A stretch of DNA of 47,804 nucleotides. It comes from an uncultured Mycoplasmatota bacterium (GTDB lineage: Bacteria; Bacillota_I; Bacilli_A; RF39; UBA660). Location of the stretch: the NCBI GenBank assembly GCA_946497955.1, contig CAMMMH010000010.1, forward strand, positions 1-47,804. The letters run 5' to 3'. Shown piece by piece: positions 229 to 16,205 of the stretch. The translations under genes were made by a program, and so were the position numbers. The notes under the pieces are model-generated. The model had not been told where the DNA came from, ran no database searches, and saw nothing but the letters and a program-made list of their open reading frames with translations. Numbering within the stretch: position 1 is the stretch's first letter; the number at the start of each line of letters is the position of its first letter.

Positions 229-639
229 ATGCAAGAAAAATTAGATAAGTTAAAAGAAAATAGTATTTTAGGAGTAGAGGCTAAAGCTAATTTGAGTATA
301 TGTCCTGGTACAAGTGGAACAATCATAACAAAAGATAAGAAAGTATATGGTTACTCTTTATATAGTTTTATGACTCCATTTTTGGAGAAAAATAATATTC
401 CATTAGAAAATATATATTTAATAAAAGAATTAACAAGTGATGAGTATGATAAGATTCTAAAATTTGTCCAAGAAGAAATAATTAATAAAGAGTATGAATG
501 TATTCCTACACGAGATGGTTATTCAGCTGTTTTTGGAAAACTTAAATCTAGAATATTTTATTATCCAAATTGTTATGCTATTAATACTAAAGAATCTTTA
601 TATAATAAGACAAGAAAACTAATAGAAGAGGTTAAATAG
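229..639 (+). CDS. hypothetical protein (~136 aa)
   Basis: ORF; AGAAGGAG RBS ahead of ATG at 229 (the ATG at 223 is too close to the RBS). Confidence 0.75.
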   Translation: MQEKLDKLKENSILGVEAKANLSICPGTSGTIITKDKKVYGYSLYSFMTPFLEKNNIPLENIYLIKELTSDEYDKILKFVQEEIINKEYECIPTRDGYSAVFGKLKSRIFYYPNCYAINTKESLYNKTRKLIEEVK

Positions 640-650
640 CAACCTCTTCT
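624..650. terminator. convergent terminator hairpin AGAAGAGGTT-aaatagc-AACCTCTTCT
   Basis: 10-bp perfect inverted repeat overlapping both convergent stop codons, followed by TTTTC on +. Confidence 0.7.
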
Positions 651-1129
651 TTTTCATATTCCTTACATTTTTCTTCTAAGAGCCTAAAATTACAACATCT
701 ATCTTTAGTTCTTTTAGAAAGTTTATTAGTATCATATTTTAACATAAAGAAATTAACTTTATCTAATAATTCTCTTTTATGATTATTTAAATAAGTAGTT
801 TGTTCTATAATTAATTTTCTATATTGTTTATCTTTTACTAAAGGAAGTACTTCAGTTAAACAAGATATTGGGGTAGGTATCATGTTATTAATATTAACTA
901 TGCCAAGTTCACCATCTTTGATTTTAAACATATCAAGAGCTCTATTATTCATAGTTAAATGTTTTGGTTTAGGACTTGAAAGTGGAGCGAAATAAGTTTG
1001 ATTATTAAAAGTATAGACAACCCCTACATAAGGTCTAGTTTTGGTTTTATTATAAGCAACTCTATTATCAAATTTTCTTAAATAGTTAATGTAATTAGTA
1101 TTAATATAGTATATTTTTAATGTTTTCAT
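632..1129 (-). CDS. type III toxin-antitoxin system toxin, AbiQ/ToxN-like endoribonuclease (copy 1)
   Basis: 165 aa; motifs YLRKFDNRVAYNK, RPYVGVV, YFAPLSSPKPKH, NINNMIPTP typical of AbiQ/ToxN family; preceded by AGGAGG RBS and a tandem-repeat RNA array. Confidence 0.9.
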   Translation of the reverse strand: MKTLKIYYINTNYINYLRKFDNRVAYNKTKTRPYVGVVYTFNNQTYFAPLSSPKPKHLTMNNRALDMFKIKDGELGIVNINNMIPTPISCLTEVLPLVKDKQYRKLIIEQTTYLNNHKRELLDKVNFFMLKYDTNKLSKRTKDRCCNFRLLEEKCKEYEKEEVAI

Positions 1130-1155: not shown

Positions 1156-1179
1156 GGGCGACTTAATTAAAAATCGCCC
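1156..1179 (-). terminator. terminator between antitoxin RNA array 1 and toxin 1
   Basis: Minus strand GGGCGA-tttttaattaag-TCGCCC followed by T-rich sequence; position matches the attenuating terminator of type III TA operons. Confidence 0.8.
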
Positions 1180-1180
1180 A

Positions 1181-1396
1181 CTTTTTTCAGTCCCTACTAC
1201 GGCAAGGGTATTCCACTTTTTTCAGTCCTTACTACGGCAAAGGTATTCCACTTTTTTCAGTCCCTACTACGGCAAGGGTATTCCACTTTTTTCAGTCCTT
1301 ACTACGGCAAAGGTATTCCACTTTTTTCAGTCCCTACTACGGCAAGGGTATTCCACTTTTTTCAGTCCTTACTACGGCAAAGGTATTCCACTTTTT
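1181..1396 (-). ncRNA. type III TA antitoxin RNA array 1: six 35-bp units (1181,1216,1251,1286,1321,1356) plus a partial seventh
   Basis: Perfect 35-bp periodicity; unit on + CTTTTTTCAGTCC(C/T)TACTACGGCAA(G/A)GGTATTCCA; units alternate A/B; minus-strand RNA has A-rich GAAAAAAG linkers. Confidence 0.88.
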
Positions 1397-1407
1397 GTTA
1401 CAACAAT

Positions 1408-1436
1408 ATAATATCAAATGAATTATATTTTGTAAA
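1408..1436 (-). promoter_or_regulatory. promoter of antitoxin array 1 (TTTACA-N17-TATTAT)
   Basis: -35-like TTTACA (rc of 1431-1436), 17-nt spacer, -10 TATTAT (rc of 1408-1413), directly upstream of array. Confidence 0.65.
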
Positions 1437-1443
1437 GCATTTT

Positions 1444-1941
1444 TTATACAGAAACTTCTTCTTTTTCATATTGCCTACATTTTTCTTCTAATAGATTAAA
1501 GTCACAACATCTGTTTCTTAATCTACTAGATAAGTGTCCTTTGTCATACCTTAATTTAAATTGTTTAACTTTATCTAATAATTCTCTTTTATGATCGTTT
1601 AAATAAGTAGTTTGTTCAATAATTAGTTTTCTATAATGTTTATCTTTTGCTAAAGGAAGTACTTCAGTTAAACAATTAATAGGAGTAGGAATCATGTTAT
1701 TAATATTAACTATACCAAGTTCTCCATCTTTGATTTTAAATATGTCAACTGCTTTTTCATTCATTGTTAAATGTTTTGGTTTAGGACTTGAAAGTGGGGC
1801 AAAGTAAGTTTGATTATTAAAAGTATAGACAACTCCTACATAAGGTCTAGCTTTATTTTTATTGTAGGCAACTCTATTATCGAACTTCCTTAAATAATCA
1901 ATATAATTAGTATCAATATAGTATATTTTTAATGTTTTCAT
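1444..1941 (-). CDS. type III toxin-antitoxin system toxin, AbiQ/ToxN-like endoribonuclease (copy 2)
   Basis: 165 aa, roughly 80% identical by eye to copy 1; same motifs; AGGAGG RBS. Confidence 0.9.
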   Translation of the reverse strand: MKTLKIYYIDTNYIDYLRKFDNRVAYNKNKARPYVGVVYTFNNQTYFAPLSSPKPKHLTMNEKAVDIFKIKDGELGIVNINNMIPTPINCLTEVLPLAKDKHYRKLIIEQTTYLNDHKRELLDKVKQFKLRYDKGHLSSRLRNRCCDFNLLEEKCRQYEKEEVSV

Positions 1942-1969: not shown

Positions 1970-1993
1970 GGGCGACTTAATTAAAAATCGCCC
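1970..1993 (-). terminator. terminator between antitoxin RNA array 2 and toxin 2
   Basis: Minus strand GGGCGA-tttttaattaag-TCGCCC followed by TTTTTATT; same element as at 1156-1179. Confidence 0.83.
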
Positions 1994-1994
1994 A

Positions 1995-2109
1995 CTTTTT
2001 TCAGTCCCTACTTTGGCAAGGGTATGCCGACTTTTTTCAGTCCCTACTCTGGCAAGGGTATTCCGACTTTTTTCAGTCCCTACTTTGGCAAGGGTATTCC
2101 CACTTTTTT
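1995..2109 (-). ncRNA. type III TA antitoxin RNA array 2: three 36-bp units (1995,2031,2067) plus partial
   Basis: CTTTTTTCAG at 1995, 2031, 2067 (36-bp period); CCCTAC...GGCAAGGGTA stem conserved with array 1 but loop and linker differ. Confidence 0.85.
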
Positions 2110-2149: not shown

Positions 2150-2188
2150 GACTTTTGTTATAATTTATTTAGAAAGTGAGTGGTCAAT

Positions 2189-3016
2189 ATGGCAAAACAT
2201 TATGATTTAGTTGGATCAGTTTATGATAAATATGCTAAAGGTAATAAATATAAAGAAGAAGAGATAATTAAAATACCTGGAGTTGCCTTGAAATCTTTAG
2301 AAGATATAGATAAATTTACAGCAGGACTTATTGGCCCTGAGGAATTAAAGAGCAAAATAGATAAAAAATATCAAAATAAATCTACTTTTGCTATAAGAGT
2401 TACCACAGATAATGAAAAATTTTATTATAAGAGCATTATTTATAATAATCCTAATCTAGTTAAAATAGCTAGTTCCTTAAAACAAAACACAGTATATAGA
2501 GCAAGTGGCCCTAGAACTATTAAAATGTATCTTGGTACTGATGATTTATTTATGGATGCCTGGGGGGAGGTTCTAAATAAAATAATAAATAGTAAAGTAA
2601 ATGATGAAGATAGGGAATGGTTATATAGCGTTTTTGGAGAAAAAAGTAGGTATACTACTTCTATTAATAGATATATAAAAGGTGATCCTTATGATAGTGA
2701 AACTGATAAAACATTGTTAGATTTAGAACAAGATTTTAGAGAGTATGAAGTATTTCGTAAATATCTTACTAATAAAGACAAAGCTAAAAATAAAACAACA
2801 ATATCTAATGTAAAAGTTACATCATCTAATATTCCTCTTAAAACTAGTTTAGATGTAATAGAAGAAAAACTAGGCAGTGATATTAGTTATGTGTCTTTAG
2901 ATGATGAAGATGATGACTATGAACCAGATGATTTTGCCTTTCTTTCTCCTGAAGAAAGAGAAAAAGCTTATGGTGAAGGTAATGAAGATATAGAAGAACA
3001 TAGGAGAAGACGTTAA
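2189..3016 (+). CDS. hypothetical protein with acidic C-terminal tail, translationally coupled to Xer recombinase
   Basis: ORF; stop TAA overlaps start of next gene (TAATG at 3014-3018); tail DDEDDDYEPDDF...EEHRRRR. Confidence 0.8.
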   Translation: MAKHYDLVGSVYDKYAKGNKYKEEEIIKIPGVALKSLEDIDKFTAGLIGPEELKSKIDKKYQNKSTFAIRVTTDNEKFYYKSIIYNNPNLVKIASSLKQNTVYRASGPRTIKMYLGTDDLFMDAWGEVLNKIINSKVNDEDREWLYSVFGEKSRYTTSINRYIKGDPYDSETDKTLLDLEQDFREYEVFRKYLTNKDKAKNKTTISNVKVTSSNIPLKTSLDVIEEKLGSDISYVSLDDEDDDYEPDDFAFLSPEEREKAYGEGNEDIEEHRRRR

Positions 3017-3903
3017 TGTTAGATGAATATTTAGAATATCTAGAATATGAAAGACATTATTCTAAATATACTATAGATAACTATGAAAGAGATATAGAAG
3101 AGTTTTTAGATTATTTAGATAAAGAGGGACTTAATTATTTAAAACTAGAATATAGTGATATAAGACTTTATTTAATGTATCTAAAAGATGAAAAACATGA
3201 GAAGTCTACTTCTATTAGTAGAAAACTTAGTGCTCTTAGAAGTTATTATAAATATCTTTGTAGTAATAATAAAGTAAAGACTAATTTATTTAACTTAATA
3301 TCATCTCCTAAGAAAGAACAGAAATTACCTAGATATTTTGAATATAACGAGTTAGAAGAATTGTTTAGTGTGCCAGACTTAAAGACTCCTTTAGGACAAA
3401 GAGATAGATTAGTACTAGAGATTATGTATGCGACAGGGATAAGGGTAGGAGAGCTAGTTAAGATTAGATTAAAAGACATTAATAGAAGTGAAAGAACTAT
3501 TCTTATTCATGGTAAAGGTAGTAAGGAGAGAATTGTTAATTATGGGGAGTATGCTAGTGATATATTAGATTTATATTTAAATAATGGTTATAAAGAATTG
3601 AATAAATTTAATAGTGATTACCTAGTTCTTAATAATCAAGGAAGAGTGATAACAGAACGGGGGATTAGATACATACTCACTAATTTAATTAAGAAAACAT
3701 CTTTACATAAAAATATATCTCCTCATATGTTAAGACATTCTTTTGCAACCCATCTTTTAAATGAAGGGTGTGATATTTTATCAGTAAAAGAATTATTAGG
3801 ACATGAGAGTATTTCCTCTACTCAAATATATACTCATATTACTAATGATAGATTAAAAGAAGTTTATTTACATAGTTTTCCAAGAAGTAATGTCAAAAAG
3901 TAA
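3016..3903 (+). CDS. tyrosine recombinase, XerC/XerD family
   Basis: 295 aa; ATGIRVGEL (R), HGKGSKERI (K), HMLRHSFATHLL (HxxR), LLGHESISSTQIYTHI (H, Y). Confidence 0.93.
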   Translation: MLDEYLEYLEYERHYSKYTIDNYERDIEEFLDYLDKEGLNYLKLEYSDIRLYLMYLKDEKHEKSTSISRKLSALRSYYKYLCSNNKVKTNLFNLISSPKKEQKLPRYFEYNELEELFSVPDLKTPLGQRDRLVLEIMYATGIRVGELVKIRLKDINRSERTILIHGKGSKERIVNYGEYASDILDLYLNNGYKELNKFNSDYLVLNNQGRVITERGIRYILTNLIKKTSLHKNISPHMLRHSFATHLLNEGCDILSVKELLGHESISSTQIYTHITNDRLKEVYLHSFPRSNVKK

Positions 3904-15025: not shown

Positions 15026-15313
15026 ATGGGTAATAATTATATTAAAACAAGACAAGGGACATTTCCTGTTACTGTTTTTGAAAAAGATATGTATGATGTT
15101 AATCTTCCTAAATATCTTGAGAATGATATTAAAGCTTTATTAAAAGGAATTAAAGAAAATAGTACACTACTTGATTGTTTAATGGACGAAGTATATGGTT
15201 CTATTAATGGAGCCTACTGGGATGGACAAATTAGTGAAGAACATGCTGATCATTTAAGAGAAAAGTATTTATTATTAAGTTGCAAGGAAAGTGATGATAA
15301 AGATGTTATATAA
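15026..15313 (+). CDS. small protein (95 aa) directly upstream of and overlapping a CtkA/HipA-like kinase
   Basis: ORF with AGAGAGTTG upstream; 11-nt overlap with next gene start. Confidence 0.75.
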   Translation: MGNNYIKTRQGTFPVTVFEKDMYDVNLPKYLENDIKALLKGIKENSTLLDCLMDEVYGSINGAYWDGQISEEHADHLREKYLLLSCKESDDKDVI

Positions 15314-16205
15314 TTTTAATAACTATGAAATAAATAAATTTAAATACTATGATGGTAGAAATGGGAATAAGATATGTCTTTTAGATGAGCATGGAACTAA
15401 ATATATGCTAAAAACACCTCCTGTAAAAAATAACAATACAAAAGATAAGTATTATACTAATGGATGTATTTCAGAACATATAGGATGTTTAATATTTAAA
15501 TGTTTGGGTTTTAATACCCAAGATACTAAGCTTGGTATTTATACAGTTGATGGTAAAGATAAATTATGTGTGTTATGTAAAGATTTTGAAACAGATAATA
15601 AGAAATTATTTAAATTTGCTGAGATAAAAAATGGTATTATTTCATCAAGTGAAAACGGCTTTGGTGTAGAACTATCTAGTGTTTTAGAGGCAATAGAAGA
15701 ACAAGAGAATATTAATCCTTCCATCTTAAAGTCATTTTATTGGGATATGTTTATTACTGATGCTTTTTTAGGTAATTTTGACCGGCATAATGGTAATTGG
15801 GGATTATTATTAGATGATGTAAACAAAACTAGTGAAATAGCACCTATATATGATTGCGGTAGTTGTTTGTATCCTGCACTGACTGATGAAGAAATGAAGA
15901 AAATATTAAATGATCCTAAGGAGATAGAGGCAAGAATATATGTTTTTCCTAATTCTATTTTGAAAATTAATGACAAGAAAATTAATTATTTTAATTATAT
16001 AAGTTCTCTTGAAAATAAAGACTGTAATGAAGGATTAAAAAGAATAGGACGAAGAATAGATTTAGACGAGATTAATAAAATTATTGATGAAGTGGAAGGA
16101 ATATCTGATATAAGAAAAGAATTTTATAAGACTATGTTAAAATTAAGAAAAGAAAAGATTATAGATTATTCACTTAATCTATTATATGAAAAAGAAGGAG
16201 CTTAG
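15303..16205 (+). CDS. CtkA/HipA-like serine/threonine protein kinase
   Basis: GTKYMLKTPP, GCISEHIGC, WDMFITDAFLGNFDRHNGNWGLLLDD (catalytic N-DRHxxN), APIYDCGSCL (metal-binding D). Confidence 0.8.
   Translation: MLYNFNNYEINKFKYYDGRNGNKICLLDEHGTKYMLKTPPVKNNNTKDKYYTNGCISEHIGCLIFKCLGFNTQDTKLGIYTVDGKDKLCVLCKDFETDNKKLFKFAEIKNGIISSSENGFGVELSSVLEAIEEQENINPSILKSFYWDMFITDAFLGNFDRHNGNWGLLLDDVNKTSEIAPIYDCGSCLYPALTDEEMKKILNDPKEIEARIYVFPNSILKINDKKINYFNYISSLENKDCNEGLKRIGRRIDLDEINKIIDEVEGISDIRKEFYKTMLKLRKEKIIDYSLNLLYEKEGA

Follow-up and report, generated by a model that had tools for sequence, protein, structure and literature searches.

The antitoxin RNA of type III toxin-antitoxin systems, ToxI, has been solved for Pectobacterium, Bacillus and Escherichia coli, with the same H-type pseudoknot architecture in each (PMC5086642, PMC8860590). 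In ToxI_Pa only one base is variable, and it lies in the first repeat; in escape mutants of phage phiTE, the repeat number of a ToxI-like array was expanded, which was attributed to strand slippage (PMC3475682). The window analyzed here, a stretch of DNA of 47,804 nt, is contig 10 of a draft genome of the gut bacterium Candidatus Onthousia (G000; 1.72 Mb in 81 contigs, 92% complete and apparently a metagenome bin). It carries a ToxIN locus in which antitoxin units of two types, A and B, alternate strictly. The features of the locus, with the two pseudoknot stems denoted S1 and S2, are as follows.

632..1129, minus strand: ToxN1, a 165-aa endoribonuclease toxin of the ToxN/AbiQ family (Pfam, PADLOC, PDB)
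1156..1179, minus strand: predicted intrinsic terminator, GGGCGATTTTTAATTAAGTCGCCC followed by a T-rich tail, in the gap between array and toxin (consensus match)
1178-1186, minus strand: partial seventh unit, after the six complete ones
1187..1396, minus strand: ToxI-like antitoxin array of six complete 35-nt units (TRF and unit split)
1396, 1361, 1326, 1291, 1256 and 1221, minus strand: unit starts in RNA order, B A B A B A
1327..1361, minus strand: example of an A unit, AAAAAGUGGAAUACCCUUGCCGUAGUAGGGACUGA; S1 UGG/CCG, S2 CCCU/AGGG
1362..1396, minus strand: example of a B unit, AAAAAGUGGAAUACCUUUGCCGUAGUAAGGACUGA; S1 UGG/CCG, S2 CCUU/AAGG
1408..1436, minus strand: predicted sigma-70-like promoter, TTTACA-17-TATTAT with an extended TG, just upstream of the first unit (consensus scan, 10/12 matches)
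1444..1941, minus strand: ToxN2, a paralogue of ToxN1 (82% identical)
1990..2109, minus strand: second antitoxin array, three 36-nt units, belonging to the tandem paralogous ToxIN locus

Promoter, array, terminator and toxin follow one another on the minus strand in the usual type III layout. The six 35-nt units agree with the tandem RNA repeats of ∼34–37 nt expected directly upstream of the toxin and on the same strand, and consensus matches gave a predicted promoter ahead of the array as well as a predicted terminator separating the array from the toxin gene. A second complete copy of this layout lies directly upstream of the first locus (1444-2109). Adjacent double ToxIN loci also occur in G001, G010 and G034. 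ToxN1 matched Pfam PF13958 (ToxN_toxin) at 6e-40, far above the cut-off, and the PADLOC AbiQ model at 1.5e-37; in the PDB it matched four ToxN/AbiQ chains, those of 4ATO (ToxN, 5.6e-22), 2XD0, 7D8O and 4GLK (AbiQ). The motif SSPK is among the columns that are invariant across ToxN relatives. All six units matched the Rfam ToxI model (RF02519) over its whole length (1-34/34), the A units at 32.6 bits (E 0.0012) and the B units at 27.8 bits (E 0.015), and one unit of the second array (1990..2109) gave a weak match to it. The Rfam gathering score (50) was reached by no unit, and a search at the gathering threshold returned nothing; the array is therefore classed as ToxI-like by its toxin, layout and structure, not by the Rfam cut-off. 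Judged by homology and gene order, the locus is a type III toxin-antitoxin system of the ToxIN/AbiQ family, and the housekeeping genes around the ToxIN pair, for example, those for alanyl-tRNA synthetase, holA and mutS, indicate a chromosomal setting. A XerC/D-like tyrosine recombinase (3016-3903) is encoded near the pair, and the window also encodes a protein with a weak, sub-threshold match to HipA_C (15291-16205).

The genome has four ToxN genes in type III (ToxIN/AbiQ-family) loci, including L003 (C18:15107-15583) and L004 (C24:4912-5400). In the toxin tree, the closest relative of ToxN1 is L007 (G010:C5:27348-27833), which has an in-frame TGA and a two-unit array beside it; its reading frame suggests that this toxin has decayed. 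Antitoxin arrays break draft assemblies at contig ends (L318-L321; G019, G024, G025, G026), and seemingly orphan arrays in the last four genomes are in fact arrays cut in this way. Array copy numbers in such drafts call for caution, and the copy number of six in the window array itself rests on a fragmented draft in which sister arrays often lie at contig ends.

Analysis of positions 1178-1396 with TRF gave a period of 35 with 94% matches and a period of 70 with 100% matches (3.1 copies). Together with the unit split, this confirmed the initial annotation in its claim that six 35-bp units of two types alternate strictly; there is no exception. The order given there, ABABAB, was right as to alternation but not as to direction, since the promoter (1436-1408) and the terminator (1179-1156) are both on the minus strand and the RNA reads B first, B A B A B A. 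A and B differ solely at unit positions 16 (C>U) and 28 (G>A), which form the third pair of S2, C-G in A and U-A in B. The two differences are thus indeed stem partners with pairing kept, as had been claimed, and the stem is S2 of an H-type pseudoknot. That the CCCU/AGGG form in which the stem was originally described can be read from either strand is due solely to the inverted-repeat character of the motif. Of all random double substitutions, 27 of 5355 (∼0.5%) would be compensated in S1 or S2. With a chance of this size and one case only, the observation in the window is suggestive, and relatives were therefore needed.

One H-type pseudoknot fits nearly all units of related arrays. S1 joins a 5′ GG(U) to (A)CC within the hairpin loop, and S2 joins CCC(U) to (A)GGG; the assignment as H-type is made from the sequence, by the pattern of S1 and S2 and the covariation of both stems. 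MFE folding of single units favored a register shifted by one, which was rejected because the covarying positions pair in the pseudoknot register across relatives. For a set of 22 close units, 98.5% of cells are paired under the named structure, which has three covarying pairs; slid-register controls gave ≤68% pairing and at most one covarying pair. When the S2 hairpin was forced, the energy model gave −4.3 kcal/mol for A versus −1.9 kcal/mol for B; B is thus predicted to have the weaker S2, and its Rfam ToxI score lies 4.8 bits below that of A. A and B do not differ in their toxin-contacting tails and loops.

To relate these changes to those in relatives, ∼146 distinct arrays were compared (86 in a first set and 60 in an independent set used for validation). 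Within each array, the first unit served as reference, the others were aligned to it by sequence only, and the 3′ partners were permuted within the unit. Compensated changes numbered 17 in the first set against 3.5 expected (0/5000 permutations), or 14 against 3.3 with the last unit as reference, and 44 in the validation set against 8.6 expected (0/3000), where S1 and S2 each passed alone. All arrays without the window array gave 60 against 12.0 expected (0/3000); in these figures identical comparisons were removed and arrays then treated as independent, so that shared ancestry inflates the significance. The compensated events are spread over distant toxins and different pairs, and most one-sided breaks affect the outermost pair of S1, a position that the model calls as paired too often.

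The pair that distinguishes A from B could be followed closely. In the genus (35 genomes), units have C-G as the third S2 pair except for U-A in the window array (three units) and in G004 (one unit) and U.G in G016 (one unit); no C.A mismatch was found at this pair in these genomes. The initial annotation had pointed to non-compensatory differences in relatives as evidence against the stem, and the outcome was favorable: the only one-sided change among the 35 genomes is the G.U wobble in G016. The G004 array (L009) reads A′ B A with the same S2 exchange, and the B unit is thus present in a second genome. The same exchange at the same pair occurred independently in a Clostridium MAG whose toxin is 55% identical (L104, array A A B A′), and L078 has a compensated change within the array at this pair. 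Elsewhere, S1 changes from GG/CC to AG/CU within arrays (L098, L093 and the contig 24 paralogues L037, L040 and L041), the units of the C24-type locus (L004) likewise differing among themselves by compensated S1 changes. S2 changes from CCC/GGG to UCC/GGA within L129, L137, L140 and L200, and from A-U to G-C in the E. coli plasmid array L185. The Lactococcus plasmid array of the AbiQ family (L184) has single changes outside S2 and no compensated stem change. Because neighboring units differ by compensated changes far beyond chance, the maintenance of S1 and S2 by selection is strongly supported by these comparisons; the proposal of a selected RNA stem gains from the many compensated changes within arrays and from the covariation of S1 and S2 relative to the slid controls. 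The accompanying contrast with near-identical ToxI/antiQ repeats had to be given up: units that differ yet remain paired are widespread, L185 included, and L184 varies too. As far as the compared arrays indicate, covarying heterogeneity of repeats is ordinary for type III antitoxin arrays.

Strict alternation, on the other hand, is rare and not a general design. In 79 non-tied three-unit arrays, the odd unit was first in 48, last in 18 and in the middle in 13, and odd-middle columns made up 37/202 in three-unit arrays. In these three-unit arrays, which come from the first two sets, an odd first unit often had a changed outer S1 pair; the one variable base of ToxI_Pa likewise falls in the first repeat (PMC3475682). 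For arrays of at least four units, the excess of differences between neighbors had p=0.042, and p=0.14 without the window array; p=0.009 had been obtained with fewer arrays and an unscaled statistic. A general enrichment of odd-middle or alternating order was rejected on these counts (37/202; 13/79; p=0.14 without the window array). A five-unit array, L276 (G795:C61; also L323), alternates strictly and independently between UCCC/GGGA and UCUC/GAGA, and its A and B classes are internally diverged, which marks it as an older case. The three-unit array L168 (B A B) and the E. albertii array L305, which alternates UC/CC, show the same tendency. L299 has five identical units and L306 seven nearly identical ones.

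We consider it very probable that the array is the ToxI part of a type III locus, that its stems are selected and that its alternation arose by duplication of a B-A block. By analogy with the family, the minus-strand transcript would be cut in its A-runs by ToxN1 into ∼35-nt monomers; bound to ToxN1 in head-to-tail fashion, these would keep the toxin silent until it is released by phage infection or by loss of the antitoxin. Each monomer is predicted to fold as an H-type pseudoknot, with S1 as GG/CC and S2 as CCCU/AGGG (A) or CCUU/AAGG (B), and the prediction for A and B is that they are almost equivalent as antitoxins. The change from C-G to U-A passed, or could have passed, through a G.U step of the kind seen in G016. 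Strict alternation would be the outcome of two duplications of the B-A pair as a 70-bp block, whether by slippage or by unequal recombination. Amplification of the 70-bp BA dimer is the simplest explanation of the alternation and the most likely one. Indeed, the three 70-bp blocks are 100% identical, as expected of a recent block duplication. The A′ B A array of G004 adjoins a homologue of the gene found at 2180-3016 in the window, and its leader resembles that of the window's second array. This would fit either a B-A pair that later underwent two rounds of block duplication or recombination between the two tandem copies. Array content changes fast, as G010 shows: sister to G000 in the toxin tree, it carries only two units, neither of them B. 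The diverged A and B classes of L276 are not explained by fresh block duplication and count against that origin. Phage-borne copies were also considered: matches to the unit core occurred in seven viral contigs, each of them isolated and without repeats, and were taken as chance or unrelated; a toxin search of viral sequences gave one distant relative.

The alternative that selection itself favors a strictly alternating order of the two stem variants, serving lone folding, two grades of antitoxin stability or both, appears unlikely; if true, selected alternation arose at least twice, in the window array and in L276. One form of it would have differing S2 stems in neighbors lessen cross-pairing, leaving every pseudoknot to fold by itself within the long precursor. 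Modeling points in this direction, with predicted cross-pairing of adjacent units at 0.064 for all A or all B, 0.060 for BBBAAA and 0.041 for BABABA, and duplex energies of −5.7 kcal/mol for A-A versus −3.0 to −3.4 kcal/mol for mixed pairs, and the arrays L276, L168 and L305 fit it too. The effect is small, however, and comes from a model without pseudoknots; three-unit arrays seldom have their odd unit in the middle, the trend in longer arrays disappears without the window array, and L299 and L306 do with identical or nearly identical units, so that such insulation would seem quite improbable.

It is likewise improbable that A and B are functionally distinct antitoxins, mixed to tune the stability of the complex or to co-assemble in one ring, co-assembly of two monomer species being a suggestion of the initial annotation. 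The differences in S2 energy and Rfam score would suit such a role, lower ToxIN stability widened the range of phages (PMC5772629), and a point mutation affecting the antiQ pseudoknot raised anti-phage activity (PMC5086642). Yet A and B differ by nothing more than the isosteric exchange of one Watson-Crick pair for another, with the toxin-contacting tails and loops the same, and heterogeneous units are common without general order. Coincidence, either through two chance substitutions while the repeat drifted or through a copy number that is an artefact of assembly, is very improbable. The window array does hold a single change of this kind, and the draft is fragmented, with sister arrays that break contigs; against this stand the ∼0.5% chance per double change, the overwhelming excess of compensated changes in relatives and the B unit of G004.

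Since the repeats covary inside an array, a single locus can reveal its own pseudoknot, which offers a cheap mapping of S1 and S2 for uncharacterised ToxIN loci. The natural series of paired-stem variants against one toxin could also serve as a probe of how ToxN reads its RNA and of the need for distinct neighbors. A limited search of open-access papers, with subscription literature mostly outside it, found no description of the general finding, internal covariation among the repeats of one type III array; the ToxIN locus itself belongs to a known kind.

Among known systems, CptIN of Eubacterium rectale shares the type III layout and pseudoknotted RNA repeats with the window locus but has 45-nt repeats, a heterotetramer and another toxin sequence (PMC4627078), whereas the toxin here is a PF13958 member. 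The ToxIN system of Bacillus thuringiensis (4ATO; RF02519) has a toxin homologous to ToxN1 (5.6e-22) and a repeat of 34 nt against 35 here (PMC5086642); its 2.9 repeats (PMC5086642) compare with six strictly alternating, chromosomal ones in the window, which span the whole 34-position Rfam model but score below the gathering cut-off. Lactococcus AbiQ/antiQ (4GLK; AbiQ model 1.5e-37) has a 35-nt repeat, as here, in 2.8 copies against six (PMC5086642). In ToxI_Pa of Pectobacterium atrosepticum, one base varies, in the first repeat (PMC3475682). The ToxIN systems of P. atrosepticum and E. coli, for which alternation is undescribed, have the gene order and H-type pseudoknot of the window locus, and the E. 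coli plasmid array L185 shares with the window array a compensated change in S2.
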